Shown: one piece after another, positions 6,001 to 35,946 of the stretch
Layout: each line of letters begins with the position of its first letter
How positions within the stretch are numbered: position 1 is the stretch's first letter
Source of the DNA: a virus
Reading direction: 5' to 3' (one strand)
Length of the DNA stretch: 36,622 nucleotides
IMG/VR virus record: IMGVR_UViG_3300029309_000119
Location: 1 to 36,622 of that record
Position numbers and translations under genes: made by a program
The notes under the pieces: generated by a model
Databases searched by the model: none
What the model saw: only the letters and a program-made list of their open reading frames with translations
Told to the model about the DNA's origin: nothing

Positions 6001-6420
6001 AGGCCCGCCTGAATCTCCTTGATAATCAAGGTCTTGGGCATCTATTTCTGCGTCTACATACGCTTTGATTGATTGTTGTGTTGCAAGAGCAGTATTGCTG
6101 TTACTGCCTAAGTTGTCTTCATCCAGGATAGTTGTAGCGACTACTCCAGATCCACCTAGCTGTACATTGTGTAGCTTCTGCGTTAACGACTGTGCTGCTG
6201 TTGCATTTGTGACAGTCCAGTTGTCGTTGTTATTGTCATATATTAAAAGCGCACCACCATTTGATGCTGCAAGTGTTACGTCAGCGACTGACTTAGAAAG
6301 TATTGTATTAGGGCCTGCTAGTCCTTGTGTGCCTGCTGTTACTACACTGATTGCACTTCCATCTACGACTGTAACTTGATTAGCCGCCTGAGTGCTGGTG
6401 ACTGATACCTTTGCTACCAT
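1..6420 (-). CDS. Giant repetitive phage appendage/tail-fibre-like protein (partial, C-terminus off the left edge)
   Basis: An uninterrupted reading frame runs from the ATG at 6420 to base 1 (2140 codons) with no stop, so the C-terminus lies outside the window. The ATG overlaps the previous gene's stop as TAATG. The translation is rich in Gly, Ser, Thr, Asp and Ala and almost free of Cys, as expected of beta-structured tail fibres. Seen in it: an N-terminal segment that looks like a virion anchor, about three and a half tandem 133-residue repeats, three copies of a module containing DFYCEASNAHYARLQAPAH, the fibre motif AELNILDG repeated with variants, and two related beta-sandwich-like segments encoded near 490-960. 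Its likely role is a virion appendage that contacts the host. I infer this from composition and repeats; the exact family is unknown. Many open frames on the opposite strand are by-products of this composition. Confidence 0.85.
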   Translation of the reverse strand, partial: MVAKVSVTSTQAANQVTVVDGSAISVVTAGTQGLAGPNTILSKSVADVTLAASNGGALLIYDNNNDNWTVTNATAAQSLTQKLHNVQLGGSGVVATTILDEDNLGSNSNTALATQQSIKAYVDAEIDAQDLDYQGDSGGPLNIDLNTEVLNIAGGTGISTVGSGNTLTVNIDATVATLTGTQNLTNKTLVSPVITTPDINTPDIDGGSADGMVIGANTPAAITGTTITGTTITGTSFVIGSASITEPELEILDGATLTTAEINLLDGTTVGTVVASKAVAVDANSDIAGFRNVTLTGELDAATLDISGNADIDGTLEADAITVNGTALAEVIQDTVGAMVSSNTESGIAVSYEDSDGTLDFNVDDFTISLAGDLGGSVTITDLASATLTATIQANSVALGTDTTGNYIATIAAGEGIDVSGSGSETAAVTISAEDATDSNKGIASFNSTDFSVSSGAVSLVAERVEDIVGAMVSSNTENGIAVTYDDTNGKLDFDVADPTITLSGDVAGSGTITNLGNVTITTTIQANSIALGTDTTGNYIATATAGEGINVSGSGSETAAITISAEDATDSNKGIASFDSTDFTVSSGDVTLNAERVQDIVGAMVSSNTESGISVTYEDSDGTLDFNVNDPTIALSGDVAGSATMTDLGNVTISTTIQANSVALGTDTTGNYVATIAAGEGIDVSGSGSETAAITISAEDATDSNKGVASFDATDFAVSSGAVTLQAERIQDIVGAMLSSNTESGIALTYQDSDGTIDANVDDFTITLAGDLGGSVTITDLASGTLTATIQANSVALGTDTTGNYVATVTGTTNEIEVSGSGSESAGITIGLPDDVTIGNDLVVTGDLTVQGTTVTLNTANLDVEDSTIRFAKNASSLAATDGAGLEFGGSSSKPTILWNNSGGFLTSNKPFNVGGANGSTLSVGALSLKNAGTQSRIDFYCEASNAHYARLQAPAHANFSGNVTITLPATTDTLVGRTTTDTLTNKTLTSPAINNAANPSFTGTSTFGGSNGVSISQGTVSIKNGGTRSAVDLYCEASNAHYARLRAPAHSEFSGNITVDLPTSSGDLIGTGDTGTVTNAMLAGSIAASKLAGSIGNSLLSNSSISVSDGSSSTATALGGTITFSGTSNEVEVGESSGTITVGLPSAVNITTSLGVGGGSTNGVQISQGAIALKNGGTQSRIDFYCESSNAHYARLQAPAHSAFSGNVTITLPATTGTIALTSGTVASANTLATARTIHGVSFDGSANIDLSEEIQDTVGAMFSGNTETGISATYQDSDGTIDLVIGSGVITDAMLAGSIANAKLANSSITVTDGSNSTATSLGGTITFSAGEGIDVTESSGTITIAGEDATSSNKGVASFNATDFSVSSGAVSLQAERVQDIVGAMVSSNTESGISVTYEDSDGTLDFNVADPTITIDGDVDGSATMTNLGNTTITVALDNSGVTAASYGSATAIPVIAVDAKGRITSASTAAISTSFTLSDGSNTQTISGGDTFTVSGTNNEVDVAVSATDTLTIGLPSDVTISNDLTVTGNLTVSGTTTQTGSVVTDNNFTGLTNANTGNSTDFGFYGKYVESSTTKYAGIYYDASVDNTFRLFVDTQTAPTTTVNTSATGYAAGNLIMGDLTTTGITLGGTAITSTAAELNILDGVTATTAEINKLDGVTATTTELNIIDGSTSATSTTLADADRLVVNDAGTMKQVALTDFETYFESALDTLSNVTTIGTLGTLAVTGDVTVNTNVLKVDTSNNRIGIKTASPAVSLDVGTATDAIRLPVGTTAQRPTPATGQIRYNSTLGRFEGYTDAWGEIGGGGGSNTFTVNTFTTSNSTTTDFTLSQAPNSEDNLFVFVEGVFMNPSDYTLSGTTVTLDAALPSGRDVIIYSVRAAVSGSNLNHDQFTCNGNSSGNLGTEFTLSISPVSENNTQVFLDGVYQQKTDYSVSGTTLTMDTAPESGAILEVMTFTQTNINVPVNDTVDTVHLKADAVTAAKIADSAISEEHLDPSIISGLTSATAVSADTFMIFDATDNALKKASIDDVVNASTSIQTAADATAIFIDSGENVGLGGAADSSFRLKVNGSTQITNNLQLDGNLLHPSGDLTLDVAGDISLDADGGDVRFKDGGTEFLQIFNNSTDAHIYNAN
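2780..3645 (-). repeat. Three dispersed copies of a fibre module
   Basis: A segment reading GTQSRIDFYCEASNAHYARL followed by a short QAPAH..FSGN stretch is encoded three times. Its core lies at about 3566-3604, 3286-3324 and 2832-2871, each time followed by a beta-strand stretch like NVTITLPATT. The middle copy is the most diverged (RSAVDLYCEASNAHYARLRAP). This is probably a duplicated structural knob or strand module in the appendage protein. Confidence 0.75.
3900..5433 (-). repeat. Tandem 399-nt (133-residue) repeats inside the giant appendage gene
   Basis: Units begin with a variant of ERVQDIVGAMVSSNTESGI, encoded at about 5402-5433, 5003-5035, 4605-4636 and 4207-4238. The spacing is close to 399 nt each time. 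Each unit continues through GDLGGSVTITDL or GDVAGS-type text, IQANSVALGTDTTGNYVAT and ISAEDATDSNKG. The fourth unit is truncated. Two more unit starts occur at about 2629-2660 and 2255-2287. The copies are far closer in protein than in codon use. Confidence 0.85.
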
Positions 6421-15437: not shown

Positions 15438-16045
15438 GTATTGAGGCATTTAACCGAGCCTGGAATCTTGAAGGGTTGACACCAACACGGAAATTAGTGC
15501 TGCTTTGTCTAGCTAATTTTGCAGATGAAAAGAATACTTGTTATCCTAGTCATGGATATATAGCAAAACGGGTAGGTCTTAAAGACCCCAAAGGAGTTCA
15601 GAGAATAATTAAAGAGTTACAGTCATTTGGCTACTTATCAATAAAGCCAAGATTTAATAAAGAAGGGGGTCAGACATCTAACCTATACACTCTGCACCTC
15701 CCCCCCTATGGCACTGTAGCCACCCCCCCTAGGGTTGTAGAACCCCCCAACACTAAAGAAGATACTAAAGACAATAAATATAGTCATCAGTTTCAGATGT
15801 TTTGGAAGCAGTATCCACGAAAGGTTAATAAGTTTGGTGCAAGTAAGAGCTTTAAAAGGTTGTCTGATAAGGAGAAGATTTTAGCTGTCAAGGCTGCAGA
15901 GAACTTTAAGCTAGAGTGTGACCTATTAAAGACAGAAGAACATTTCATACCTCATGCACAAACATGGCTCAACAACCGACGCTATGAAGAGCATCAACAA
16001 GCCCCACAGCCAATCAAGAGGACAGCTGGGCAGATAGCAGGATGA
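15434..16045 (+). CDS. Winged-helix replication initiation-like protein
   Basis: 203 residues from the ATG at 15434, which overlaps the previous stop by ATGA. Residues about 10-85 are a winged helix as in phage replication proteins of the lambda O or helicase-loader type: LTPTRKLVLLCLANFAD, then CYPSHGYIAKRVGL, and a wing ending in SNLYTLHLP. A Pro/Thr-rich linker follows (about 88-112). The C-terminal domain (about 115-190) has FWKQYPRKVNKFGASKSF and PHAQTWLNNRRYEE, seen in phage replication proteins that probably recruit a helicase. The gene lies in the same operon as the primase-helicase. An origin might lie nearby, but I cannot point to iterons. Confidence 0.75.
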   Translation: MSIEAFNRAWNLEGLTPTRKLVLLCLANFADEKNTCYPSHGYIAKRVGLKDPKGVQRIIKELQSFGYLSIKPRFNKEGGQTSNLYTLHLPPYGTVATPPRVVEPPNTKEDTKDNKYSHQFQMFWKQYPRKVNKFGASKSFKRLSDKEKILAVKAAENFKLECDLLKTEEHFIPHAQTWLNNRRYEEHQQAPQPIKRTAGQIAG

Positions 16046-17751
16046 AAGTTTTAAGCATGTTTGACGGTATGAGCTGTGGTCAAATGGCTCTAGATCGTTT
16101 AGGTATTCCTGTTGAAACTTACTATGCTAGTGAAATTGACAAGTATGCAATTGAGGTGTGTAAGAAAAACTACCCTAATACCATACATGTTGGAGACATC
16201 TCTAATCTAGATCCTGCAGACTTTATGGATGTAGACCTTATGCTTGCCGGCAGTCCATGCCAGGGGTTTAGTTTTGCAGGAAAGCAGTTGGCTTTTGATG
16301 ATCCAAGGTCAGCACTTTTCTTTGAGTTCATACGATTACTAAAAGGTATTAAGCCTAAGTATTTCTTATTGGAGAATGTGATGATGCAAAGAGAGTTCCT
16401 TGATGTCATCACTCAGCAAGTATCAGCTATTTACCCTGAGCATCAAGAACCTGGGGAACTATTTGGTGGTGTCATAAAGCCTATACTTCTTAATAGCAGC
16501 TTGGTAAGTGCGCAGTCTAGACAGCGATACTATTGGACAAACATAAAAGGCATTAGAGAACCTGAGGATCGGGGCATAGTTTTAAAAGACATCTTAGAAG
16601 ACAACTTAGAGTTTGGTGAAGCTCCTAATTATCTCAATGGAATGTTTGGTGATCAAAGACGTGGGGACATGGTTAGTGATGAGAATGAGAAGGCTAATTG
16701 CCTGACTGCATCAATGTATAAAGGTCAGATCAGCACCTTTGTAAAAAGAAGCAACAAGCCACAACAGGTAGGCCTCAATGTTGAAGAAGTCAAAGTAAGG
16801 AAGCATGAGGTAGATATTGAAGGCTTGCAAAAACTATTGAGATCTTCCAAAGAATCTATCGGTATCACCAATAAAGAATTAGCAGAAGAATTAGAGTTGC
16901 CATTAACAAAGGTTGAGCATTGGTTTAGGACTGATGCTAGCTTTGCAATTCCTACTGATGATGTATGGATAAAGCTCAAAAAAACCTTGGATATTGAGAC
17001 CGATGCCTTTGATCAACAAGTATTGGATTTTGAATTTAGAGATGGTGTCTATGAAAGCACACAACGAGTTTATAGTGAGAATGGAAAATCACCTACATTG
17101 ACTGCTGCAAGCTCTGATCAACTTATAGAGATGCACATAGATCCAACAAAACCTAAACAAATAGGTATTGCTGTAGATATAAATGGTCATGACCAACTCA
17201 AAAGAGTCTACTCCCCTGAAGGTAAATCACCCACCTTAACTACAATGACAGGTGGACATAGGCAACCAAAGATCATCAAAGGTGCTGCAATAAGAGGTAG
17301 ATACACTGAGGATGGCATACAGCAAATGCTTGAGCTAAGAAGTGATCAAAAAGCAAACAGCATAACTACTGTACCAACAGACAGCATAGTATCTGAAAAA
17401 CTATCAGGAGCTATGGATACACATACAGAAAGTGGTCTTAAGATCCTAGAGAATTTAGAAGAAGGTGAAGTTGCTGCTACACACTTAACAAATAGTGCCA
17501 CCTTTGGTAACTCTGTATCTGACAGTGGTAAGGCTTTCACCCTTAGGGCTAGTAATCCAAATGGCATAGTACAAAGGGATGAAAACCTGCAATACAGAAA
17601 GCTGACACCTTTAGAATGTGAGCGATTACAGACAGTTCCCGACAACTACACAGATTGTGTTTCTAACACACAGAGATACAAGATGCTTGGTAATGGATGG
17701 ACAGTGGACATGATCTGCCACATTTTAAGTTACATGGAATTAGATGATTAG
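16042..17751 (+). CDS. dcm: DNA (cytosine-5) methyltransferase with HTH-like insert
   Basis: 569 residues. Conserved C5-MTase motifs: I (MFDGMSCGQMALDRLG), IV with catalytic Cys73 (GSPCQGFS), VI (LLENV, Glu111), VIII (QSRQR, 158-162), IX (RKLTPLECERLQ, about 519-530) and X (YKMLGNGWTVDMI, about 546-558). The target-recognition region (about 180-515) is unusually long. It holds an HTH-like stretch (about 256-318, including ITNKELAEELELPLTKVEHWF) and five short repeats of the form K-S/A-x-x-L/I-T, for example GKSPTLTA. It transfers methyl groups from S-adenosylmethionine to cytosine, probably protecting phage DNA from host restriction. No partner endonuclease is seen, so it is an orphan. The start overlaps the previous stop (ATGA). 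Confidence 0.9.
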   Translation: MKVLSMFDGMSCGQMALDRLGIPVETYYASEIDKYAIEVCKKNYPNTIHVGDISNLDPADFMDVDLMLAGSPCQGFSFAGKQLAFDDPRSALFFEFIRLLKGIKPKYFLLENVMMQREFLDVITQQVSAIYPEHQEPGELFGGVIKPILLNSSLVSAQSRQRYYWTNIKGIREPEDRGIVLKDILEDNLEFGEAPNYLNGMFGDQRRGDMVSDENEKANCLTASMYKGQISTFVKRSNKPQQVGLNVEEVKVRKHEVDIEGLQKLLRSSKESIGITNKELAEELELPLTKVEHWFRTDASFAIPTDDVWIKLKKTLDIETDAFDQQVLDFEFRDGVYESTQRVYSENGKSPTLTAASSDQLIEMHIDPTKPKQIGIAVDINGHDQLKRVYSPEGKSPTLTTMTGGHRQPKIIKGAAIRGRYTEDGIQQMLELRSDQKANSITTVPTDSIVSEKLSGAMDTHTESGLKILENLEEGEVAATHLTNSATFGNSVSDSGKAFTLRASNPNGIVQRDENLQYRKLTPLECERLQTVPDNYTDCVSNTQRYKMLGNGWTVDMICHILSYMELDD

Positions 17752-23904: not shown

Positions 23905-24372
23905 TTATACATCGTACCAGTCCTTACCTTGCCACAGTAAAGCCTCTGCTTCTCTGCGTCTTTCCAATCCAGGTAGGACTACCTTTTCTCCGTTCACTGT
24001 TGCTTTGTTCCACCTACGCATCTGCGCTGGCACTTCGCTTTTTTTGTTTTCATTCAAAACCTTAAGTAATGTGCTTGCATTTAAGTTCCCACCACCTAGA
24101 TTAAATGTCCATGCTACCAAGGCATCAAACTCACACTGCTCCAGTGGCACTTCTACAGCGTTGTTCACAATAGACTCAAACTGCTCTAAATCCTGATCCA
24201 ACAGAGCCTCTGCGCCCTCTTGTGTTATTTGCATGCCTTCGTGTGTAGTACCAGTATGGCCATATCCTATGGTTAATTTTGATGCGCTACAAAGGTATGC
24301 CTTGAGTTCACACCCTTCAAATTTTTTGATAAGGGCTTTACCCTCTTCACTTATTACTCTCATGTCTGCCAT
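23905..24372 (-). CDS. Endolysin, T4-type lysozyme with Glu-Cys-Thr triad
   Basis: 155 residues from the ATG at 24372, seven bases after GGGGAG and directly after the previous stop. A longer frame to 24486 overlaps the nuclease gene and looks artificial. The phage lysozyme (GH24) catalytic spacing is intact: Glu19 (FEGCE), eight residues, Cys28 where many have Asp, five residues, then Thr34 (LTIGYGHT). A Cys in that position is known in some phage lysozymes. It would cut peptidoglycan at the end of infection. No signal peptide or SAR segment is visible, so release probably needs a holin. Confidence 0.92.
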   Translation of the reverse strand: MADMRVISEEGKALIKKFEGCELKAYLCSASKLTIGYGHTGTTHEGMQITQEGAEALLDQDLEQFESIVNNAVEVPLEQCEFDALVAWTFNLGGGNLNASTLLKVLNENKKSEVPAQMRRWNKATVNGEKVVLPGLERRREAEALLWQGKDWYDV

Positions 24373-24373
24373 G

Positions 24374-24787
24374 TCATACTCCCCAGGTGCCGTCTTCTCT
24401 AACTCTGGCAATCTTTGTTTTGCCGTAGTAAGGACACGCCAGACCTTCTTTAATAAGGATGTCAGAGACATTGATACCATCCACAAAAAAATGCCCTAAA
24501 ACTCTGCCATACTTGTCGCGTTCCAAACTTTGTAATCTTACGTCACCTACTAATAATTCTTTTAATCTTGCTTTTGCTTTTAATCCTAGCTCTTTTTCTG
24601 CTGCTCGTTCTGGATACCTCTTAAGATTGATACGCGATTCTGCTGTGTCAATTTCTGCAATTCTTACTGCAACATTGTGCAACTTCATAGAAAAGCCTAG
24701 GTCTACCCAGGATAGCCGCACTGTATCTCCATCTGTGATGTATTTAACTTCACACATATATGTGAACAGTGTAGGCTGATTAGACAT
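24374..24787 (-). CDS. Staphylococcal-nuclease-like (thermonuclease) protein
   Basis: 137 residues. The SNase residues all align by spacing: Asp19/Asp21 in YITDGDTVRL, Arg42, Asp47, Thr48 and Glu50 (VRIAEIDTAES), and Arg95 (ERDKYGR). No signal peptide is seen, so it probably acts in the cytoplasm, or in the periplasm after holin triggering. SNases cut single- and double-stranded DNA and RNA with calcium. It lies in the lysis cassette between a small membrane protein and the lysozyme. It could help clear host DNA at lysis or act in packaging; that is inference. The ATG shares a base with the previous stop. Confidence 0.85.
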   Translation of the reverse strand: MSNQPTLFTYMCEVKYITDGDTVRLSWVDLGFSMKLHNVAVRIAEIDTAESRINLKRYPERAAEKELGLKAKARLKELLVGDVRLQSLERDKYGRVLGHFFVDGINVSDILIKEGLACPYYGKTKIARVREDGTWGV

Positions 24788-24975
24788 CACTTGATGACTT
24801 TATCATCTCCAGGCTTCTGTTTCGCAAACCCAAAATTTAGCGCAGCTAAATCTATCAGCTTGTACAGCTTCCCGATCCAAGCATCGTCCTTTGGCGTTGG
24901 GGTGCTAGCAGCTACAATGCTTGCTATACATACCACAGCGGTGATGCCTTGTACTAAGTTCATTATGATTTCCAT
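24787..24975 (-). CDS. Small membrane protein, candidate holin
   Basis: 62 residues with a strong AGGAGG five bases before the ATG. One hydrophobic segment (about 4-25: IMNLVQGITAVVCIASIVAAS) is followed by TPTPKDDAWIGKLYKLID and a short amphipathic end. It resembles small proteins in other marine phage lysis regions. One membrane helix, position between spanin-like and lysozyme genes and size suit a holin or antiholin; no family is certain. Stop and next start overlap by one base. Confidence 0.55.
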   Translation of the reverse strand: MEIIMNLVQGITAVVCIASIVAASTPTPKDDAWIGKLYKLIDLAALNFGFAKQKPGDDKVIK

Positions 24976-25013: not shown

Positions 25014-25394
25014 TCAGTCTTTTTTCTGATTTTCGTCTTCTTTGTCGTCATCGTCTAGTGATCTGTAATATTTTATGATAGCTAGGACATCCTTGATATA
25101 TCGCTTTTGTTCTGCCGTATTCATGCTCAGGTTCTCATAGCCTTGCGTAGTTAAGGCGTAATAGGCTTGAGCTGGTGCAGAGCCTTCCTCCAGTGCCGCT
25201 AAATATTCGTCCATGATTTCAGGTGTTAGGACTCGCCACTGGATGTCTACCAATTGTACCTCTAGGGGGAGAGGAGGATGATAGAGAGGAGCAGGCTCTG
25301 ACACCGTGACTACCTCTATTGGTTTAGTCGTAGGCATCAAAGAACATCCTGTGGATAAGATGAGTATTGATGCTAGGGCTGCTAGCCTAGTCAT
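25014..25394 (-). CDS. Lipoprotein, candidate outer-membrane spanin (Rz1-like)
   Basis: 126 residues. The N-terminus is a short hydrophobic signal ending in the lipobox LSTGC (Cys17), so the mature protein would be lipid-anchored in the outer membrane. It continues with a Pro-rich stretch (PAPLYHPPLPLEVQ), a helical middle, and a very acidic C-terminus (DDDDKEDE). Gene order just after a TM/coiled-coil protein and before lysozyme matches Rz/Rz1 pairs. It is longer than typical Rz1 proteins (about 60 residues). It would bridge to the inner-membrane partner and disrupt the outer membrane. It overlaps that gene by eight bases. Confidence 0.7.
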   Translation of the reverse strand: MTRLAALASILILSTGCSLMPTTKPIEVVTVSEPAPLYHPPLPLEVQLVDIQWRVLTPEIMDEYLAALEEGSAPAQAYYALTTQGYENLSMNTAEQKRYIKDVLAIIKYYRSLDDDDKEDENQKKD

Positions 25395-25773
25395 ATTGAC
25401 TCGGATCTGTGAGCGCGATCAGATCTTCCTTGACCTTCATAGTGCCTTTGTTGACTATGTTCTCAATAAGTCCTGGCTTACTAAGCGCTAGGTTATCCAT
25501 GTTGTGCCTCGCAAACGTATTCTTGAGCTTGGCTACTTCTCTTTGTGATGCTTGGTTTTGCTTTTGGAGATCTGCTATTTGGGTTTCTCTTTGCTGCTGT
25601 GTTTCCAAATAGTTTTTGATTGATTCGTTTTGCTTCTGTATCTCGCCTTGTAATACGACTGCATTAGCTTTGAGTTGGGTAATCTCTTTAGATTGAAACT
25701 GAATATAGAACCACATTCCCCCTAGCAGGGTGATGGATGCGGCTGCAAATATTAAATTAAATTTTAAACCCAT
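25387..25773 (-). CDS. Inner-membrane spanin-like protein (Rz-like)
   Basis: 128 residues. One N-terminal membrane helix (about 6-26: LIFAAASITLLGGMWFYIQF), then a long coiled-coil-rich region (about 30-90, with Gln, Glu and Lys). The C-terminal segment RHNMDNLALSKPGLIENIVN looks like spanin-type ends I recall in other phages. The order, inner-membrane protein with coiled coil followed by a lipoprotein, matches the two-component spanin system that fuses inner and outer membranes at lysis. It directly follows the cyclase gene by 14 nt, linking the lysis cassette to the curli/cyclase cluster. Confidence 0.75.
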   Translation of the reverse strand: MGLKFNLIFAAASITLLGGMWFYIQFQSKEITQLKANAVVLQGEIQKQNESIKNYLETQQQRETQIADLQKQNQASQREVAKLKNTFARHNMDNLALSKPGLIENIVNKGTMKVKEDLIALTDPSQYD

Positions 25774-25787
25774 TTTGGTATTGTAGG

Positions 25788-27617
25788 TTATTTTTTAAGT
25801 TTTAGCACCTTGCCATCTATGAGTGGTGCGTAGATTGTTATTTCGTCTTCTTTGCCTTTCACCTTAATCTTATCTACATACACACACGCTATCTCATTTT
25901 GTATGAGATCATAGGTATCCTGGGGCAGCAGTATTGGGGTGTCCTGCTTTCTTGTTTCTCCCTCTAACCTTGCGCCTAGATTTACTGCATCACCAATGAC
26001 AGAGTAATTCATTCTCATGGATGAACCTGTATTCCCAACAATACTTGGGCCTGTAGAAATGCCAGAACCAAACATAACAGGAGGCAGATCTAAACCTTGG
26101 TTTTTAAGATCTTGATTGAGCTTTTGACACAGTAACTCAAGTTCTATAGCAGTCTTAACAGTGATGATCGCATGGTCTTCTCTAGGTATAGGCGCACCTG
26201 CCCATGCCATGATGCAATCGCCCATGTACTTATCTAGCGTTAATCCATTGCTGATTACCACTTTAGTCATTTCATCTAAGAAATGATTGATTAGACTTAC
26301 AAGACCTTCAGGATCACCCTTCTTCATATACATCTCTGAGATAGGGGTGAATCCCACGATGTCTGAAAACAGATAGGACATGGTTTTATTTTGACCACCA
26401 AGCACCATTAGATCTGGGTTTTTAACAATAATATCTACATACTCAGGACTTATGTATGTGCCAAACTGATCTTTGATTTGTTGTCTTAACTTGTACTGTT
26501 CCCGAAACCTTATGTAGAAGCTGACAGATGCTGTAATAAATTGTGATATTAGAGTCCATGTGACATCTATCAATGCCCCAGACTTTATTAGAAACACACC
26601 ACTAGCACCAACACCTAATATAGATATGAGTGATAATCCTAAGCCAAGATATAAGCCTAGGAAATTTACCATTATAAATACTGCGAATGTACCAAGGGCA
26701 AAGATAAGCAATTCATACAACAAAGCATTGGAAGGTATGCTAGGCATAGGTTGGCTTGAAGCATGTATAATTGTTTCTGCTACTGCTGCTTGAATTTCTG
26801 CTGGAGTCAAAAGACCTATAGGTGTTGCTGTCATTGGAAGGATGCCTTTAGCCTTTAGGTTTACAACAACCATCTTGCCTTCTACATCCATCTCTGTGAG
26901 TGATGTTCCACGTGGAACAGTCCAATTGATCCAAACTCTTCCATACTCATCTGTAGGTATTGGGTTGAGTTGCTTCACTCTAATCTCTTCTATGCCAAAT
27001 TCATTAGTCTTAATAACATATGTATCTGTGCCTGTGACTGATTTAAGCATCTGTGTGGCAAAAGCTGCTATCCATCCATCTGGACTACGCATCAGAAGAG
27101 GCATTCTTCTTAACAGGTTATCCACATCTACTGGTGCTGATACGATTCCTTGCAAAGCATTCTCTCTAAGCATGGGAATGTTCTGCTTTACACCTTTGGC
27201 TTCTATGCCTCCAACCTCGTCACCTAGGATTACTGTGCCTTCTGTAGTGGGTATATCCTTCCAATTCTCTGTCTCAAACATAGCCAAAACACTTGGATAG
27301 TATGATAGGGCTTCTGCAAAGACTTCATCACCACCAAGCCTATCTTTCTCAGGGAAAGAAACCACCCAAGATACTGAGGTTGCACCTTTATTAAGTAGCT
27401 CTACATGAAGGATGCCTAGTTCTTCTCTGCTCCAAGGCCATTGCCCTTGTTTCTCAAGATCTTCTTCTGTGATATTCAATAAGACTATGTTGCCTGTCTG
27501 TTCCTTTGGTTCAATGAAGGCATCAAATGTTCTTAGCTTTATGATCTCAACAATGCTGACTTGATATATAAGTGGTGTTGCAAGAGCTGCCATGAGAAGT
27601 ACAACAAACTTCTTCAT
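25788..27617 (-). CDS. CHASE2 class III nucleotide cyclase (probable adenylate cyclase), membrane-bound
   Basis: 609 residues, with an ATG overlapping the FecR stop (ATGA). The order is an N-terminal membrane helix (4-20), a periplasmic CHASE2-type sensor (about 30-285), three membrane helices (about 298-316, 318-345, 350-368), then a cytoplasmic class III cyclase. Catalytic residues are metal Asp419 (FSDIVGFT) and Asp467, with substrate Lys463 (LDKYMGD). Ser539 occupies the position that is usually Asp or Thr. Transition-state residues Asn546 and Arg550 (DAVNLGAR) follow. Lys463 favours ATP, hence cAMP. FecR-CHASE2-cyclase pairs are known in bacteria. In a phage late operon such a gene is surprising; whether it signals to the host, or senses the envelope, is inference. 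Confidence 0.93.
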   Translation of the reverse strand: MKKFVVLLMAALATPLIYQVSIVEIIKLRTFDAFIEPKEQTGNIVLLNITEEDLEKQGQWPWSREELGILHVELLNKGATSVSWVVSFPEKDRLGGDEVFAEALSYYPSVLAMFETENWKDIPTTEGTVILGDEVGGIEAKGVKQNIPMLRENALQGIVSAPVDVDNLLRRMPLLMRSPDGWIAAFATQMLKSVTGTDTYVIKTNEFGIEEIRVKQLNPIPTDEYGRVWINWTVPRGTSLTEMDVEGKMVVVNLKAKGILPMTATPIGLLTPAEIQAAVAETIIHASSQPMPSIPSNALLYELLIFALGTFAVFIMVNFLGLYLGLGLSLISILGVGASGVFLIKSGALIDVTWTLISQFITASVSFYIRFREQYKLRQQIKDQFGTYISPEYVDIIVKNPDLMVLGGQNKTMSYLFSDIVGFTPISEMYMKKGDPEGLVSLINHFLDEMTKVVISNGLTLDKYMGDCIMAWAGAPIPREDHAIITVKTAIELELLCQKLNQDLKNQGLDLPPVMFGSGISTGPSIVGNTGSSMRMNYSVIGDAVNLGARLEGETRKQDTPILLPQDTYDLIQNEIACVYVDKIKVKGKEDEITIYAPLIDGKVLKLKK

Positions 27618-28738
27618 TGTCCTTGCCTAATTCTTATTGTGGAACTAGATCCACCATTGACTGTTACAGTTCTGCTAATGCCATTCTGTATGAATATGAC
27701 TGTGTATGATCCACCAGCATCTAGATCTAACCTAATGTTATCTTCTACTTGCCTTCTAAGAGAAACTCTTTGCTGATCTACAATGGTGATAATGCCTGTC
27801 TCAGAGTCTTGCCCGAGCTGTGTACCCTTGATGGAAACTGATGTTGCTACTTGGTCAAGCTGATCCTCTTCTTCTATGTCACCTAGCTTGTCTATTATCT
27901 GAAGAAGATCCTCCAAGAAGTTTACATCTAGGTAGTTTATATCCAGCTCTGTGAAGTCTAGGTCTGCTTCATTATCTAAGAAGTCTTCTGCTAGTAGGTC
28001 TATGTCTAGGTCTTCAAAGGCCAGGTAATCATCGGCTGATTGTATGGCATTCTCTGTCTGTTGAAATTCAGCGTTAGCCTTAGGAGGGCTTACAATAAGC
28101 ATGTTATCAATAAGATCTAGTGTTAGATCCAAGATAACAGGATCTGTAGGGCTAGTTTCAAACACCTCTACAGTTGTAGCTTCAAATGGTTTATTTAATA
28201 GAACCTCGCCCATTGCAGTGGAGACTAAGATCTCGCCACTAGACAAGCCAGTTATAGGATCGGGAAGCAACATAATTAAGCTAGATCCTAGCTCTGTCAC
28301 TGTGATTGCTAGGGAAGTACCACGAATTGCTATGTCAGCAGATGGTGTTTTGAGCTTTATGTTTCTTTTGTCTATGCGTCCGAGCTTGCCTGTGACGAAT
28401 CGCGCAGTGCCTTGGGCAAAGTTTATGGCTAACTTAGAATTGCTTGGATCATTAGAGTAGACATACTCATCTACTATTAGTGAAGAATGCTCTGTGAGAC
28501 GTACTATAGTCTCATCTAAAAAGGTTATAGCTAACCTACCCTTGCTAGTTCTTACATCATCTAGGGGCTGTATGGGGACTTCTAGAAGAGCATCTATAGG
28601 CTCTTCCCTATATATACGAGCTACTCCACGCAGCTCAGATACTGCTCCAATATCAACAACTTGTGCTTCCGCCTGCATCGTTTTGGATGATGCAAACAGT
28701 GCCACTATTGCCATTAGTAATAATCTTGAGCCAATCAC
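27614..28738 (-). CDS. FecR-domain exported protein
   Basis: 374 residues from a GTG at 28738. The first 25 residues look like a signal peptide (SRLLLMAIVALFASSKTMQAEA). A FecR domain spans about 60-150 (DDVRTSKGRLAITFLDETIV, and IKLKTPSADIAIRGTSLAI). A very acidic middle (about 238-296), then a Gly/Thr/Arg-rich beta-like end. FecR domains are periplasmic and usually relay envelope signals. This gene sits between the curlin and cyclase genes, so it could be the periplasmic partner of the CHASE2 sensor. It overlaps the curlin gene by 86 nt, and no ribosome site is visible, so its start is less sure than its identity. Confidence 0.85.
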   Translation of the reverse strand: MIGSRLLLMAIVALFASSKTMQAEAQVVDIGAVSELRGVARIYREEPIDALLEVPIQPLDDVRTSKGRLAITFLDETIVRLTEHSSLIVDEYVYSNDPSNSKLAINFAQGTARFVTGKLGRIDKRNIKLKTPSADIAIRGTSLAITVTELGSSLIMLLPDPITGLSSGEILVSTAMGEVLLNKPFEATTVEVFETSPTDPVILDLTLDLIDNMLIVSPPKANAEFQQTENAIQSADDYLAFEDLDIDLLAEDFLDNEADLDFTELDINYLDVNFLEDLLQIIDKLGDIEEEDQLDQVATSVSIKGTQLGQDSETGIITIVDQQRVSLRRQVEDNIRLDLDAGGSYTVIFIQNGISRTVTVNGGSSSTIRIRQGQ

Positions 28739-29369
28739 TGACCAACGTACTCTCTTGTTTAATAGTAAACGCTCTACTGTTACCTGTTTGATCTAAGTAG
28801 AAATATCCACCAGCTTTTCCAGATCCTTCAAAATCAACAGTGTTTGAGTCACCATCTATATCAACATAGTTAGTGCCTGTCTCATAATTGATGTCAAAAT
28901 CTAGGTCATTGCTATCGCCATTGATTACCCAATCTAGGTCTAAGGTATCTGCTAATGCAGACGTACCAACGTTCAAGTCAAATGTATTACTGCTGCCTGT
29001 AACATCAATATTGTAATTACCTGTGTCAGCACCATAGGTATTAGTGGGATCTACTTGTATTTTAAATACGTTGGAGTCTCCATCAAATTCTGAGAACCAT
29101 GTGATGCTACTTCCTGTAATATCACCTAGGAATTGGTTACTGTTACCGATTTGATTGATGTCCATTGTGAGTGATGCTGTATCAAGATCAAGAGCAGTCA
29201 TAGAGCCTGCAACTGCATTGAGTCCACCAATGATGTTGCTGTTACCCAACTGTTCTACATCTAAGTTTAAAGTAGCGCCAACTTGATCTATATAGATCTC
29301 GTTGTCAGCACTATAGACTGAAAAGGGATAACACCCACATGCAAGGATTAATAATAAACGTCTCATCAT
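28653..29369 (-). CDS. Secreted curlin-repeat protein (CsgA/CsgB-like)
   Basis: 238 residues from the ATG at 29369, six bases after GGAG. The signal peptide is about 1-20 (RRLLLILACGCYPFSVYSA). The rest holds eight or nine repeats around a turn such as Q-x-G-N/D-S-N, centred near residues 31, 42, 75, 97, 125, 151, 173, 196 and 220, with spacing of mostly 22-28. Examples are DINQIGNSNQF, FDGDSNVFKI and LDQTGNSRAFTI. Curlins have the same Q-x-G-x-x-N/Q style of repeat and stack into amyloid. Two Cys near the end (226 and 238) are unlike CsgA. It lies next to csgG and csgF homologues, suggesting it is their cargo. The cargo role is inference; the repeats are plain. Confidence 0.8.
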   Translation of the reverse strand: MMRRLLLILACGCYPFSVYSADNEIYIDQVGATLNLDVEQLGNSNIIGGLNAVAGSMTALDLDTASLTMDINQIGNSNQFLGDITGSSITWFSEFDGDSNVFKIQVDPTNTYGADTGNYNIDVTGSSNTFDLNVGTSALADTLDLDWVINGDSNDLDFDINYETGTNYVDIDGDSNTVDFEGSGKAGGYFYLDQTGNSRAFTIKQESTLVSDWLKIITNGNSGTVCIIQNDAGGSTSC

Positions 29370-30208
29370 TCTATACTCCAAAAACCCTTGTTGGAGCCTT
29401 CCTGTATGAGCTGCAATACCGCAGTTTCAATGGCAGCTTGTAAAGCTAGGTTGACTGACTCATTCCTTACCAATCCACCTTCAATCTCCACAAGTTCTGT
29501 GCCTTGCGTTATGAAGCGAAATACATCTTGTGAAATAGACGCTGATAGTATCGTCTTAGTCACAAGGACTTCCAACAATACGCTACCTGTAGATACAGAT
29601 ATAATGCGAAGAGAAATTATTACTTCATCTTCCCTATATTCTCTGGAGTTACCCAACCCCAGGAACCTCGCACCTGCGCCTCCTGACGAAACGTTACTTT
29701 CATATCCTACCACAGATCCACGTATTAACAAACCTGCGAACTTCAGAGGCATCAATTCTTGTTCATCTTCAAACTGTTGACGAGTATTTCTAATGAGCTG
29801 TCTTTCTTTTGTAAGGTTATCTAGACCTATCCTTTCAACGACATTGAAGAAGCCACCATTGTCTTCACCTGCTCTATGTAAAGCTCGCACAAGGTAGAGA
29901 TAAGGTGCTTGTGTTATTGCTGTAGAGAAGCTGGCATATTGGCCATTAGAAAGTCTTGCTCCAGTCTGATCTGTAAAAGCATCTGCATAGACTGCAACAG
30001 TAGGTTTAGCCTTGGGTTTGCCTATTGCAGAAAGTTCTTTGATAACTATGGGAGCTATCTCTGAGGCTTCTATGTGCTTAATAGGTGGGAGGTTGTTGTC
30101 TATAGGATCAAACATCAAGGCACAACCATTTAGGAGCATAGCCCCTACAAAGGTTATGGTGATCTTAAAAGGTGAACGAACCCAGGGGTAGAGAGATAAC
30201 TGTAACAT
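29366..30208 (-). CDS. csgG: CsgG-like curli secretion channel, outer-membrane lipoprotein
   Basis: 280 residues from the ATG at 30208; a GTG three codons earlier (30217) is the alternative, and neither has a good ribosome-binding site. A hydrophobic signal ends in the lipobox LLNGC. The body follows E. coli CsgG closely: ASFSTAITQAPYLYLVRAL, GLDNLTKERQLIR, GSVVGYESNVSSGGAGARFLG, RIISVSTGSVL, TKTILSASISQDVFRFI and AAIETAVLQLI, ending GFWSIE. Family members form nine-fold pores that export curli subunits. Its 5' end overlaps the csgF-like gene by about 44 nt, and its stop overlaps the curlin start. In E. coli csgF and csgG are also adjacent. Confidence 0.93.
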   Translation of the reverse strand: MLQLSLYPWVRSPFKITITFVGAMLLNGCALMFDPIDNNLPPIKHIEASEIAPIVIKELSAIGKPKAKPTVAVYADAFTDQTGARLSNGQYASFSTAITQAPYLYLVRALHRAGEDNGGFFNVVERIGLDNLTKERQLIRNTRQQFEDEQELMPLKFAGLLIRGSVVGYESNVSSGGAGARFLGLGNSREYREDEVIISLRIISVSTGSVLLEVLVTKTILSASISQDVFRFITQGTELVEIEGGLVRNESVNLALQAAIETAVLQLIQEGSNKGFWSIE

Positions 30209-30689
30209 TGCCTTCACTATCGGTTATGGTGAGGGTTATCATATCTCCCTCAACGATGTAACTAATCGTATTACCAAGTAGTTCAAGAATGCCCTGCGTC
30301 TGCGGGTTCTCTCCAAATAACTGATCTACCAACTGTCTTGATAGCTGAGCATAGATACGTGATTCCAAATTACGTAAGAATCTAGCAAGCGTAGTGTTCT
30401 CTTCTTCTCGCTTAAGCTGTTCTTTATATGCTTTGATCTCTTCTTTGATCGCTTTCTTGCGATTAAATTCTTGATTTTCTATTGTGAGGTAGTGGCTGGA
30501 TTGATTGATACCACTAAAAGATGGGGACTTGAATTTGTGTACCATCTGATCTGCCATAGCATTCTGGACAAACATTCCAGCAAACAATATGACTCCGATA
30601 GCCGATAATATTTTTATAATAAGAGTTTTCTCTTTCTCTTTTTTAACTTGGTCTAGCTGTTTCTTACTAGGTCTGCCTCTCTTTGCCAT
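30165..30689 (-). CDS. csgF: CsgF-like curli assembly factor with unusual N-terminal extension
   Basis: 174 residues. The segment MVHKFKSPSFSGINQSSHYL (about 49-68) matches the start of mature CsgF, which plugs into the CsgG pore. A helical stretch (RFLRNLESRIYAQLSRQLVD) and a beta-rich end (TISYIVEGDMITLTITDSEG, then VTVISLPLGSFTF) also follow CsgF. A membrane-like segment (about 22-42) ends in AMA (44-46), a likely signal-peptidase site. Unusually the N-terminus is basic and carries KRGRPSKK, an AT-hook-like motif, so the n-region is some 20 residues longer than in a normal signal peptide. The stop overlaps the csgG-like gene. E. coli CsgF is about 138 residues. Confidence 0.85.
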   Translation of the reverse strand: MAKRGRPSKKQLDQVKKEKEKTLIIKILSAIGVILFAGMFVQNAMADQMVHKFKSPSFSGINQSSHYLTIENQEFNRKKAIKEEIKAYKEQLKREEENTTLARFLRNLESRIYAQLSRQLVDQLFGENPQTQGILELLGNTISYIVEGDMITLTITDSEGNVTVISLPLGSFTF

Positions 30690-31039
30690 TAGTCTTTTCT
30701 CTGGTCATCCCTGTCTGCTTTAGCCAATCTATCTGACTGCATCAGTTGGGGTACACCTAGTATAGTCTTTAAAAGGGTATCTTGTCTAATTATCTCATTG
30801 TCTACGGATCTAACACGATCTATCAATGCCACCAAAATACCATGCTGAGCGTCTAATTTTGCGCCTAGCCTTTGCTCAATCTCACTAATTTGTGCAGATA
30901 CCTTATCATCTAAGACGTCTACTTTAGCTTCCATGCCATCTATAATTTTATTAATTAACTTCCATATGAAAAGACCTAAGCCAAGGGCTGCTGCTATCGG
31001 GAATCCAACCTCATTGATTAGTTGTACTACGCTGTCCAT
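30689..31039 (-). CDS. Small membrane protein with coiled coil, holin-like candidate
   Basis: 116 residues from the ATG at 31039, one base after the previous stop; a longer frame to 31096 overlaps that gene and lacks a ribosome site. One membrane helix (about 8-30: NEVGFPIAAALGLGLFIWKL), then a long coiled-coil region (DGMEAKVDVLDDKVSAQISE onward). It resembles small membrane proteins common near marine phage lysis genes. Its stop overlaps the csgF-like start by one base. It could be a holin or a membrane anchor for the neighbouring export genes. No specific family is recognised. Confidence 0.6.
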   Translation of the reverse strand: MDSVVQLINEVGFPIAAALGLGLFIWKLINKIIDGMEAKVDVLDDKVSAQISEIEQRLGAKLDAQHGILVALIDRVRSVDNEIIRQDTLLKTILGVPQLMQSDRLAKADRDDQRKD

Positions 31040-31040
31040 T

Positions 31041-31592
31041 TCATGTGTTGTCTGTTGTCCATTGCTCCTTTGTAAGTACACTAGACTCAAAGCCATTATC
31101 GTCAGTGCCTAATTCCGTATGATTAGCAGTTGTTGTGCGTTTTTTCACGTACTCATAACCTGCAGCTTCTTTGTCAATCTTGACTGCGGTGATTTTTTGC
31201 AAAGGTGTTGTGGTAAATAAATTTTCGTTGACACCTATAGAGAACTCTTTGAAATAGCCCTTATTTCGTTCATCCTCAGGTGTCCATACAAACTCTACTG
31301 TAAACTCTGAAAGGTTAGATCTTAGGTTGTTGTTTTTTGTATTAGACAGCTCCCAGGCTTCACCTTCTTTACCCCTCAATTCTGGCAAGGCCACTACAAA
31401 AACGCATACTAGCTTGTTGTCTGATGTTCTTATTGCAGCATGTACACGCCATCCATTAGCTTTCACCAACCCATGAAACTGTGCTAGCGATCTACCCATT
31501 GCAGATGCCACTACAGAAAATTGACTTTCATGCAGCTGACCAAAAGTCAGGTTTGTGGTAGTCCCGTGTACCCGTAAGAGCTTATCGCTCAT
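31041..31592 (-). CDS. Unknown phage protein in the tail region
   Basis: 183 residues, with its start overlapping the previous stop as ATGA. No signal peptide or membrane helix. The sequence alternates helical (SVVASAMGRSLAQFHGLV) and strand-rich parts (VHAAIRTSDNKLVCVFVVAL, then EFTVEFVWTPEDE). No motif is recognised. Its place between tail-tip and curli-type genes suggests a virion or late-assembly role, but nothing in the sequence proves it. Confidence 0.65.
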   Translation of the reverse strand: MSDKLLRVHGTTTNLTFGQLHESQFSVVASAMGRSLAQFHGLVKANGWRVHAAIRTSDNKLVCVFVVALPELRGKEGEAWELSNTKNNNLRSNLSEFTVEFVWTPEDERNKGYFKEFSIGVNENLFTTTPLQKITAVKIDKEAAGYEYVKKRTTTANHTELGTDDNGFESSVLTKEQWTTDNT

Positions 31593-31953: not shown

Positions 31954-34900
31954 TTAACTCCTCGCAATACTGTGTGTGCTTGTAGAATGGCTATAGTTAC
32001 CAGTTTGCGACCCACCTGTTGTTCTTCCTAATATGATTTGCGAGTCTGTTCTATCCACCAGCTGTATTTTTGGTGTGCTAGATACTGCTGTTACATTTGA
32101 TACAAACAGCTCACACCAAAGCCAAAGTGTTCCTGTAGTTGTTTGTGATGCCTGTGGTATGTTTAATTCAAGCTCATTAACTAGAACACTAAACCCACCG
32201 CTAAACGTAGTTGCTGTCCCAAATTGACTAAGCGCTAGAACTTCACCAATGTCACCGTTTGTTACTTGGCTGTATGACGATGAGCTACTACTAATCCCTG
32301 CTGATACATAAATTAATAAATTACCGCCTGTGCTTCCTTTGCCAGATGATGTAAATGTCAAATTGCCTGTCACCCCAAATTGGAAATTTTTAAGGGTGAT
32401 CTTGTTGTATCCTCCTGATTGTACCGATTCTATAAAAAATGCAGATGGTGCTACCTTATGACCAGAGTCATATGATGAACTTCCGTAGGTAGGCAACCCA
32501 GTAGTTCCAATGAGATATGATTTTCCTGTAGCATCTGTGCCATTTGGTAGCCCCCTAGCAGAGTTGTAAGCTGCAGAACTAGAGTTGATGCTTAGGGTGC
32601 GGCTGTTCCCAGTAAGGCTATTGTCTACAAAGGTTCCAGAGCCTGTACCAATACCAGATATTTCACCGTCATTATTAATTGTAATTCCGCTATTGAGCAG
32701 ACCAGACTCTGCTAGATTTTCAAATGAGCTTCCATTCCAACGTGGCAATATGCCTACAGTGCTGCCAAACGTACTGGCTATATCTATTCCAAACCCACCC
32801 CTAGCAGGAGGCACGGTGGTTCTTATATTCAGTGTTCCACTTGTAAAATCTGGTATGCCAGTAGCCGATGATACGTCCTGCCCAAAACCACCTACACTCT
32901 TGCTGACTGTTCTTTTAACATCTCCAGCTGTTGTAAGTCCTGCTGTCAGCCTAGATCTAATACTGCCGCCATCAGTAAGGGTGTTCATGGTAGGGTTGCC
33001 CGTACCATTGTTGCTGTAGGTCAAGCTGCCATCTGTATTCATCTGAATACGAGTGTTTATAAGTCCGTTTGCAGCCGCAAGGTTTGACCCAATTTGGGTG
33101 CTGCCTTTTTTAATTTGTAAGCTAGTGCCGCTATACGCTAAAGAGAGATCGCTGTTTCTAACGTCCTCATCGCTGAGAGATGTACCACCACTATCAACCA
33201 AATTAGTGCCAAGAGTAGCTCCGACTGTAGCTCCGCTAGCTGGTAGCGTAGAAAAGACTTTGCCAGTTCCTGCTAAATTGCCACTAGATATTTTGTCATT
33301 AGAGAATACAGTGGTGCCAGTGCCTGTGTTGGTGAGCCTACCGTTGGTATCTACACCTATGCTTCCGTTCTTTATTTCATTAGCAGTGAGATTTGTAGAG
33401 CCATCTGTATCAAATAGATTAGTTCCGAACCTAGCCCCGACTGTAGCTCCATCATCATAGTCAAGACCTAAGTTACTCTTAGTAACATCTACTGACGTGT
33501 TAGATGAGCCAATACCAGATATAGATATACGCCCTACGTTTGTGGTCGTGTCTAACGCTATACCAATGACATCATTAAAAACACGCGATCCAGAACCAGT
33601 ACCTATACCACCTATAACCCCTGTGGTGGTGTTTATTGAAATACCGTCATTTTTAATGCTTACGCTTGCATCATCAGGCGCTGTGCCTGCCCTTAGACGA
33701 ACTAACTTAGTGAGTTCTGCCGATGTAAAAGGCTCTAGCAATGTGAAGCTAGATGCGTTGTTGTTTTTTAAACCTATCTTTCCATCTGAACTACTAACAC
33801 TATCAAACTCTGTTTTATTAGCTCCGTCAAAATAATCAAGAGAGAGATTAGATTTAGTAACATCTATAGTGTTATTACTCCCTCCGATACCTCCTATGCT
33901 TATACGCCCTATGTTGGTGATTGTATCTAAATCTATATCTATGATGTCGTTGAAGATCCTAGAGTTGTTACCTGTTCCTATGCCCCCTATTTTCCCAGTT
34001 GTGCTGTCTATAGATATAGCATCATTTTGTAGGTCTGTATTAGATTGTGCTGATCCCGCTACCGTGTGTTGCACGGTGGCGTATGAGCTATAGATTCCAT
34101 GTATGTTAAGGTGCCTTACCCGCACATCATATTGCTGCCCTGTCTGCACCCCTGGTATGAAACCAAATGTAAGGCCTTTGGGTATCATAGGCTGTATTGT
34201 ATATTCACTATCAGAGGTGAGCTTGTAAGATAGTTCTGTGCCTGTCACTAGCTCAGATGTAGAGTTTGTCCAGTTAGCTCTAATTATTTTTTGATTTACT
34301 ACATAGACGTTAAAGGTGAGCGTGGTTGCACTTAAACTGGATGGCGCTCCTGGTGTTCTGGAATCATCTGATATATCAGATCCTTCATCTGGCACAGTGC
34401 CATATTCGTTGAATACATGATTGAACACAGAGCTGTTGTTTTCTTTAAGTTCTAGCTTTGTTGCAGCAGCTGGTGTCTCATCACCAACCATCTCCATGTT
34501 TGTAGAAATAACTTCAAAAACTTTATTTGTATATCCTAGTCGTTCATTAGTTACATACACCCAATCTCCAGGCTGTAACTTTAAAAACTCCATAGTGGTC
34601 ACTAATGACAGAGCAACACTTTGTCTACCATGACGCAACGCAATCTTTGCTAATCTGTCAGCCATACTTGATGTAGTCGTGTAGGGCAGTTGAATTTCTT
34701 GTTGCTTTACATAGTTTGCAGAGCTTTCACCACTGGGTGTATCTGCTGATAAAAACGTAGAATCCTGAAACACAGCACCGTCAGTACCTGTAAAGTTTTG
34801 ACTTGCATCTACATAAATCGGTTTGACAGTGTTATATAGCTCTCCGTTATTAGGTCGGGTGCTAACTTGTGCAGGTGCTAGTAGCTTATCGTCTGTGATA

Positions 34901-35946
34901 GTAAGAGATGGTGTTTGTGCAGCCCCAACAAACAAACTAAATTTTCCATTCACATATGTCATTTTTCCAGCACAAGATGACAACAGCCCTTCTAATACAC
35001 CGTCAGGAGATGCAGACATGTCTGTAAATCCGTTAGCGGTATACCGATCTTCGGTGCTTGAGTTATCAGCTAGCGTGACATCTTGATCGCAGGTGTTAGC
35101 TGCTGAGGCAAAGCCACCTGCTGATGTACTATCATTAAGTTCTGATGCTTCTGCCTTTAATCCGTAGGTTGTATTGCTCAGATAGTCTCTGATACATAGA
35201 GCAGGGTTAGAGGTAAATGCAGTAGAGTTTGTCCTTGGATCAAAACACTTCTTGCCTTTGACTTTAAATGTAAGGGTAGGCGGCTGAGGTAGCTTCTCTG
35301 TGTCGTATACCATCTGTACATACACGTATGCACAGTCCTTATATATATGTGTAGTTGGTATTGATCCACTTAGCTGATTACGCAGAAACCCATCTGCTGT
35401 AGTTTGTGATCCGTTGTTAAATGAGAATCTCATTAAGGTACCACTGCTATCTAGCTTGTTATCGTTATCTGAATTTTTAAGCGATGATAAATTGACGTTA
35501 AATACCTGCTTACCGCCAATAGTAGATGTGGTTGTATTGTTCCCGATAACCACGTTTTTACCATTTATTCTTAAGGCTTCTAAGCTCTGTATTTCGTGAC
35601 CAGCAACAATCGCAACCATGTGTAAAAGATGATTGTCTGTGCCAGACGTTTGCATATGCACAATCGTGCCACCAACAATACATTCGCCATACACAATCTG
35701 TCTTGCAGCTGTAGCGTTTCTAGTGGTGACTTTTGTGCCAAAGTTTTTATTGTTTGCTTCTATGCCTTTGGATGTCAGCATAGAAAGACCTGAAGATATA
35801 AGTGTAGTCGCAAATGTTACTGCCGCCATAGCTGCAGCACCTGTTAGACCAAATGCACTAAACGCAGTTGCTCCTACTCCTCCTGTTGAGGCAACTACAA
35901 ATACAACGAGTGCAGCTACAACAGCAGCTTTAATGGCTTTAGCCAC
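31954..35946 (-). CDS. Tail-tip / host-specificity protein, lambda J-like
   Basis: 1330 residues. The N-terminus (about 1-60) is rich in Ala, Val and Gly and hydrophobic, like the tail-embedded start of many J-type proteins. A tail protein body follows: RQIVYGECIVGGTIVHM, CIRDYLSNTTYGL, and LKLQPGDWVYVTNERLGY (about residue 455). A fibronectin-III-like segment is at about 535-635 (PGAPSSLSATTLTFNVYVVN onward). The C-terminal half (about 640-1330) is repetitive and beta-rich; it probably carries the receptor-binding part. It follows a DUF6950-like gene with an 8-nt overlap, a usual tail-tip order. The homology is to the family, not to a particular phage. Confidence 0.88.
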   Translation of the reverse strand: MAKAIKAAVVAALVVFVVASTGGVGATAFSAFGLTGAAAMAAVTFATTLISSGLSMLTSKGIEANNKNFGTKVTTRNATAARQIVYGECIVGGTIVHMQTSGTDNHLLHMVAIVAGHEIQSLEALRINGKNVVIGNNTTTSTIGGKQVFNVNLSSLKNSDNDNKLDSSGTLMRFSFNNGSQTTADGFLRNQLSGSIPTTHIYKDCAYVYVQMVYDTEKLPQPPTLTFKVKGKKCFDPRTNSTAFTSNPALCIRDYLSNTTYGLKAEASELNDSTSAGGFASAANTCDQDVTLADNSSTEDRYTANGFTDMSASPDGVLEGLLSSCAGKMTYVNGKFSLFVGAAQTPSLTITDDKLLAPAQVSTRPNNGELYNTVKPIYVDASQNFTGTDGAVFQDSTFLSADTPSGESSANYVKQQEIQLPYTTTSSMADRLAKIALRHGRQSVALSLVTTMEFLKLQPGDWVYVTNERLGYTNKVFEVISTNMEMVGDETPAAATKLELKENNSSVFNHVFNEYGTVPDEGSDISDDSRTPGAPSSLSATTLTFNVYVVNQKIIRANWTNSTSELVTGTELSYKLTSDSEYTIQPMIPKGLTFGFIPGVQTGQQYDVRVRHLNIHGIYSSYATVQHTVAGSAQSNTDLQNDAISIDSTTGKIGGIGTGNNSRIFNDIIDIDLDTITNIGRISIGGIGGSNNTIDVTKSNLSLDYFDGANKTEFDSVSSSDGKIGLKNNNASSFTLLEPFTSAELTKLVRLRAGTAPDDASVSIKNDGISINTTTGVIGGIGTGSGSRVFNDVIGIALDTTTNVGRISISGIGSSNTSVDVTKSNLGLDYDDGATVGARFGTNLFDTDGSTNLTANEIKNGSIGVDTNGRLTNTGTGTTVFSNDKISSGNLAGTGKVFSTLPASGATVGATLGTNLVDSGGTSLSDEDVRNSDLSLAYSGTSLQIKKGSTQIGSNLAAANGLINTRIQMNTDGSLTYSNNGTGNPTMNTLTDGGSIRSRLTAGLTTAGDVKRTVSKSVGGFGQDVSSATGIPDFTSGTLNIRTTVPPARGGFGIDIASTFGSTVGILPRWNGSSFENLAESGLLNSGITINNDGEISGIGTGSGTFVDNSLTGNSRTLSINSSSAAYNSARGLPNGTDATGKSYLIGTTGLPTYGSSSYDSGHKVAPSAFFIESVQSGGYNKITLKNFQFGVTGNLTFTSSGKGSTGGNLLIYVSAGISSSSSSYSQVTNGDIGEVLALSQFGTATTFSGGFSVLVNELELNIPQASQTTTGTLWLWCELFVSNVTAVSSTPKIQLVDRTDSQIILGRTTGGSQTGNYSHSTSTHSIARS
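33430..34040 (-). repeat. Duplicated module in the tail-tip protein
   Basis: Two copies of a roughly 75-residue segment are encoded at about 33820-34040 and 33430-33660. Each contains I-D/N-TTG-x-IGGIGTG, SRIFNDI or SRVFNDV, ITNIGRISIGG or TTNVGRISISG, and DVTKSNLSLDY or DVTKSNLGLDY. Related shorter stretches (GIGTGSG) recur further downstream, indicating repeated duplication in the receptor-facing half. Confidence 0.75.

Follow-up and report, generated by a model that had tools for sequence, protein, structure and literature searches.

A group of phage genes encoding CsgF, CsgG, curlin, a FecR protein and an adenylate cyclase was described in 2022 as a viral type VIII secretion (T8SS) module, found in podophages of the HTVC023P type and in pelagimyophages, for which an alphaproteobacterial origin and transfer between virus families were inferred (PMC9599517). 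The first report of csgGF genes in phages is claimed in PMC7029224, and those of the Melnitz phages have been discussed elsewhere, where a role in lysis was proposed for CsgGF, acting as a gated secretin or pinholin (PMC9004378). In bacteria, the CHASE2 cyclases of the Campylobacterota cluster with FecR-domain outer-membrane proteins (PMC9239204), and in S. meliloti the CHASE2 cyclase CyaK has as its receptor the outer-membrane protein NsrA, via which CyaD1 and CyaD2 are also activated (PMC7529298, PMC13001267). The S. meliloti CHASE2 cyclases act through Clr, constitutive cAMP alters the exopolysaccharide, and a FecR-domain gene near cyaD1 was dispensable for the signal tested (PMC5498481).

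We analysed a viral DNA of 36,622 nucleotides (IMG/VR record IMGVR_UViG_3300029309_000119, hereafter the window), and we are almost certain, from sequence comparison, that it carries a further member of the published phage curli module, with a membrane cyclase as one part. The module identity, the gene order, the intact active site of the cyclase, the purifying selection acting on it and the ancestry shared with the modules of marine phages are all established at the level of sequence. What is new is that the module occurs in a lineage of lambda-like siphophages, directly upstream of spanins and endolysin (the literature searched, the coverage of which was partial, yielded no earlier description from a siphophage), together with sequence evidence that bacteria keep the FecR–cyclase pair apart from the curli genes and that phages have the two joined. 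On balance, we favour the view that the cyclase is the signalling arm of this curli-type (type VIII secretion) module, which a lambda-like siphophage carries among its late accessory genes.

The genes concerned lie on a single strand and, in order of transcription, encode a J-like tail protein, small proteins, a 135-residue protein with a transmembrane segment and a coiled coil, CsgF, CsgG, a curlin-like protein, a FecR protein, the cyclase, the inner and outer spanins, a staphylococcal-nuclease-like (SNase) protein and lysozyme (Table 1). The stop codon of the FecR gene overlaps the start of the cyclase gene by four bases (ATGA), and the inner spanin gene begins 14 bases past the cyclase stop codon. 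As in the viral T8SS, genes for CsgF, CsgG and a curlin-repeat protein (the last assigned by homology) stand together, with FecR and adenylate cyclase genes downstream in the same order. The initial annotation, which had reported a complete membrane nucleotide cyclase gene in a phage late operon, is confirmed in its reading frame, domains and late-gene setting, tail protein J lying on one flank and the spanin, SNase and lysozyme genes on the opposite one; its title leaves the upstream CsgF, CsgG, curlin-like and FecR genes unmentioned. CsgG also matched the NCBIfam CsgG model (E = 1.5e-42), under the equivalog cut-off. Pfam identified neither CsgE nor CsgD of the canonical bacterial curli operon in those window proteins that were tested. 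The SNase-like gene (24374-24790) overlaps the lysozyme gene, and occupies the same place in relatives such as L013, L019 and L020.

Table 1. Positions of the module and flanking genes in the window, with the evidence for each assignment.
Feature	Position	Strand	Evidence
Lambda J-like central tail protein, siphophage marker	31954..35946	-	phrog_5616, phrog_31 central tail fiber J
Small protein, 135 aa, one TM segment and coiled coil	30689..31096	-	Hydropathy; conserved position; phrog_18771, function unknown
CsgF, 174 aa	30165..30689	-	Pfam CsgF E 5.4e-19
CsgG, outer-membrane curli pore lipoprotein, 283 aa	29366..30217	-	Pfam CsgG E 1.8e-45
Curlin-like repeat protein, 242 aa; GxSN-type repeats, C-terminal Cys pair	28653..29381	-	Homology to HTVC008M/Melnitz curlin-repeat proteins and related contigs
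FecR-domain secreted protein, 374 aa	27614..28738	-	Pfam FecR E 3.4e-10; phrog_37870 E 1.7e-64; N-terminal hydrophobic segment; HTVC008M/Melnitz homologue
CHASE2 and class III nucleotide cyclase, predicted adenylate cyclase	25788..27617	-	Pfam, AF2, PDB fold matches, catalytic residues
Inner-membrane (Rz-like) spanin	25387..25773	-	phrog_739 Rz-like spanin E 1.3e-13
Outer-membrane (Rz1-like) spanin lipoprotein	25014..25394	-	phrog_812 Rz-like spanin E 6.8e-15; lipobox-like ILSTGC
Phage lysozyme (endolysin)	23905..24486	-	Pfam Phage_lysozyme E 3.8e-42

The curlin-like protein was not recognized directly by Pfam or NCBIfam, and its AlphaFold2 (AF2) model, which is all-beta with a pLDDT of 80, gave no significant match to the PDB (best E = 0.03; CsgA fibril E = 1.5). 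The assignment therefore rests on homology to the HTVC008M and Melnitz proteins, the Melnitz homologue itself matching Pfam Curlin_rpt, and on the bacterial csg loci, where the HMM of the curlin-like family also matches proteins adjoining CsgG.

A sister contig, L171 (IMGVR_UViG_3300030116_001845), carries genes for the neck, tail terminator, major tail, tape measure, distal tail and J proteins, followed by the same module, and gave no match to a tail sheath; this set of tail genes, together with the J protein of the window, identifies the phage as a lambda-like siphophage. The window, a linear fragment, has no exact repeats at its ends and, judged from L171, is without several kilobases of tail genes. 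A very large truncated reading frame (1-6420, more than 2100 residues) lies between the head genes and the missing tail genes; it was considered as the tape measure and rejected, because L171 has a tail-fibre-like protein at this place and encodes a 696-residue tape measure within the region that the window lacks. Assignment of a host failed, since the terminase is nearest to that of a Microcystis phage (54%), the capsid to that of a Rhizobium phage (47%) and J to that of a Roseobacter phage (31%), and the window contains no tRNA.

The cyclase gene starts with ATG and encodes 609 residues, with the CHASE2 sensor (residues 11-308, E = 1.7e-29) and the Guanylate_cyc catalytic domain (residues 411-594, E = 1.9e-17), both above the curated Pfam cut-offs, on one membrane protein, as is characteristic of the CHASE2–class III architecture. 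Hydropathy indicates a single N-terminal transmembrane segment and a cluster of such segments at about 296-350, and the AlphaFold2 model (mean pLDDT 89, from a 50-row alignment) has three long helices in residues 298-385, an arrangement that fits a periplasmic CHASE2 domain and a cytosolic cyclase domain. The modelled cyclase domain resembles Pseudomonas CyaB (3r5g; TM 0.88-0.89 by target) and Spirulina CyaC (1wc1; TM 0.85-0.87).

The residues of interest are Asp419, Lys463, Asp467, Ser539, Asn546 and Arg550, and the numbering in the initial annotation was confirmed. Its statement that both metal-binding Asp residues (419 and 467), the substrate Lys463 and the transition-state pair Asn546 and Arg550 are present was borne out in full. 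When conservation was scored across 87 phage relatives and the best 80 bacterial loci, the catalytic residues were found to be kept in 84-86 of the 87 and in 80 of 80, respectively, the two Asp residues and the Lys being invariant wherever aligned. Ser539 had been taken to replace a usual Asp or Thr, but Ser is the commonest residue at this position in phage (Ser 71, Thr 13) and bacterial (Ser 53, Thr 27) relatives alike, with Asp occurring once overall, so Ser539 is the norm for the family. In an alignment to solved structures, the guanylyl cyclase Cya2 (2w01) has Glu at the position of Lys463 and Gly at 539, whereas Lys and Thr occupy these positions in the adenylyl cyclase CyaB (3r5g); the combination of Lys463 and Ser539 in the phage enzyme thus makes ATP the likely substrate. 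Production of another cyclic nucleotide (cGMP, or cCMP or cUMP as in Pycsar), or the feeding or blocking of a nucleotide-signalling defence, seems very improbable to us. The residue at 539 is neither Asp nor Thr, and the cyclase domain is hit by the PycC models of PADLOC (E = 8.4e-16), but the similarity extends no further than the class III fold common to both, no gene for a Pycsar effector turned up beside the cyclase gene, the membrane CHASE2 architecture is unlike the soluble PycC, Ser539 is shared with the family and Lys463 marks the use of ATP. An effect on nucleotide-sensing defences, raised in the initial annotation, accordingly finds no support.

The cyclase is under purifying selection, judged from comparison with its counterpart in L171: the two are 89% identical, with dN/dS about 0.056, and for the catalytic part the identity is 96% and dN/dS about 0.023, below the 0.065 of the CHASE2 part, although these ratios are approximate because dS is near 1.4, close to saturation. 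The expectation that the enzyme should be active is probably correct, given this selection and the residues kept in its relatives; it appears to be a complete, intact and probably active membrane class III enzyme, and we hold with good confidence that it is an active adenylate cyclase. No measurement of the activity of a phage cyclase was found in the literature searched. It is highly unlikely that the protein is an inactive relic, for which the loss of the catalytic Asn in the Melnitz homologue might be cited: the catalytic residues are all intact in the window cyclase, the dN/dS of its cyclase domain is low, and Asn546 is kept in 84 of the 85 phage relatives scored, Melnitz being the sole loss. 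The Melnitz cyclase (L007, 9923-11974), in which Ser stands in place of the transition-state Asn and residue 539 is Asp, is unlike the other scored phage relatives and may be inactive or altered, so cyclase activity may be dispensable in some phages.

The initial annotation supposed CHASE2 class III cyclases to be rare or unreported in phages, but they are already published (PMC9599517), and are annotated in known isolates. A tblastn search of annotated phages with the window cyclase found Pelagibacter phage HTVC008M (37%), in which the gene bears the annotation adenylate/guanylyl cyclase, and four isolates of the methylophage Melnitz (30%), and a profile search found relatives encoded on at least 472 IMG/VR contigs, a frequency understated by a single-protein search for near relatives, which gave five viral loci only. 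Matches to Acinetobacter phage 'MD-2021a' were set aside as probable host contigs, being flanked by mfd and isc genes. The order CsgF, CsgG, curlin, FecR, (curlin), cyclase is kept in nearly all viral loci that are long enough, including L171, and both HTVC008M and Melnitz carry it with a curlin gene between FecR and the cyclase; in some viral loci the cyclase occurs without curli genes on a short contig. The window thus shares genes, order and homologous proteins, and a single phage clade of cyclases, with the pelagiphage T8SS (HTVC008M and HTVC023P-type; PMC9599517, PMC7029224), but differs in belonging to a lambda-like siphophage, in having no second curlin gene between FecR and the cyclase, and in placing the module directly before the lysis genes. 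The Melnitz curli cluster (PMC9004378) has the same order, whereas Melnitz is a myophage and its cyclase is the more divergent one described above.

A phylogeny, which had been proposed as a check on the cyclase, places the phage enzymes in one group apart from the bacterial ones and not among inactive homologues, the catalytic residues being kept save for the Asn546 to Ser change in Melnitz. In this quick tree of 76 rows, with SH-aLRT as the sole measure of support and bacterial rows drawn from the best 80 loci, a branch with support of 99 divides 22 phage cyclases from 54 bacterial ones; 20 of the 22, including those of the window and HTVC008M, form a group (support 99), and the window cyclase groups with nine others (support 100), several of which are on podophage-like contigs. 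The tree indicates that the window cyclase shares ancestry with the pelagiphage cyclases. In two further loci, L001 (4755-9587) and L005, the genes from CsgF to FecR are on one strand and a shorter cyclase is divergently transcribed; the L001 cyclase forms a separate branch of the tree.

The bacterial counterparts appear as two separate units. Among the best 80 bacterial loci, which encode the nearest cyclases, a FecR gene lies just upstream of the CHASE2 cyclase gene in at least 13, and no csgF, csgG or curlin gene was found nearby. Conversely, a match to CsgF was found in 6 of 385 genomes (from the class of an alphaproteobacterial MAG), and at the five such loci inspected within 20 kb, CsgG was present in all five and curlin in four, with neither FecR nor a convincing cyclase. 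These data suggest that the FecR–cyclase pair and the curli genes are separate in bacteria and were joined in phages, although the small number of bacterial loci limits this claim. As in the phage, the FecR and CHASE2 cyclase genes of Alphaproteobacteria and Campylobacterota (PMC9239204) are adjacent, but the bacterial FecR proteins are often larger, and can bear TPR, cadherin or RTX domains, and the bacterial cyclases are only about 26-33% identical to that of the window.

On the mechanism that we propose, the cyclase would act as a membrane homodimer converting ATP to cAMP, with the secreted FecR protein, whose gene overlaps its own, as a putative periplasmic partner. By analogy with NsrA and CyaK and with the Campylobacterota pairs, FecR would relay the state of the outer membrane, envelope or secretion to CHASE2, and we consider it slightly more probable than its opposite that FecR is the input partner, a reading weakened by the dispensability of the S. 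meliloti FecR-domain gene. In S. meliloti, too, an outer-membrane partner drives a CHASE2 membrane cyclase, but that system is bacterial, with no curli genes reported, and NsrA is a large beta-barrel, in contrast with the 374-residue phage protein. The most likely source of the signal would be the CsgG/CsgF pore or curlin export, although that the state of curli or pore is what is sensed we suggest only tentatively. The cAMP might then act late in infection through a host regulator of the Crp/Clr type, assumed because tests of window proteins against Pfam gave no domain that binds cyclic nucleotides.

Such action on the host could also be the whole of the function, with the cyclase reshaping metabolism or surface polysaccharide through Crp or Clr independently of the curli genes, with which it would merely be co-inherited. 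The Clr-dependent effects of cAMP on exopolysaccharide in S. meliloti (PMC5498481) and the occurrence of bacterial relatives without curli genes are in keeping with this, but the tight retention of gene order with FecR and curli in several types of phage points to a joint function, and we think the idea unlikely. Of about the same standing, or a little better, is a role for the module in timing lysis or in envelope permeability, the CsgG/CsgF pore acting within the lysis programme or close to it, and the cyclase tuning the time of lysis. Spanins, SNase and lysozyme directly follow the cyclase in the window and, among its closest relatives, in L013, L019, L020, L025 and L026, as do spanins and lysozyme in L015, L016 and L017; the Melnitz authors' proposal (PMC9004378) is of this kind, and the small protein encoded before CsgF could be a holin. 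However, the pelagimyophage modules do not adjoin lysis genes, accessory genes are often located between tail and lysis genes, so that position is weak evidence, and the conserved curlin-like proteins would not be needed by a bare pore. The combined proposal, of a circuit built by phages from two bacterial systems that senses envelope or secretion and times lysis via cAMP, we regard as a long shot.

If the phage makes both cAMP and a surface-fibre apparatus, as the signalling-arm reading would have it, the late stage of infection would bring changes in host signalling and in the host surface. Among marine phages the gene set is widespread, and it also lives in lambda-like siphophages beside ordinary lysis genes; given a host, such siphophages may be more tractable than SAR11 phages for studying the function of the cyclase.

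Two minor observations concern other genes. The 135-residue protein, which stands before CsgF in most viral module loci, looks holin-like and may correspond to a gene named as a histidine kinase in PMC9599517. Elsewhere in the window, positions 16042-17751 encode a C5-cytosine DNA methyltransferase of 569 residues, in which a long central region interrupts the match to the family, and within which there is weak similarity to a helix-turn-helix (aMBF1-like) domain.
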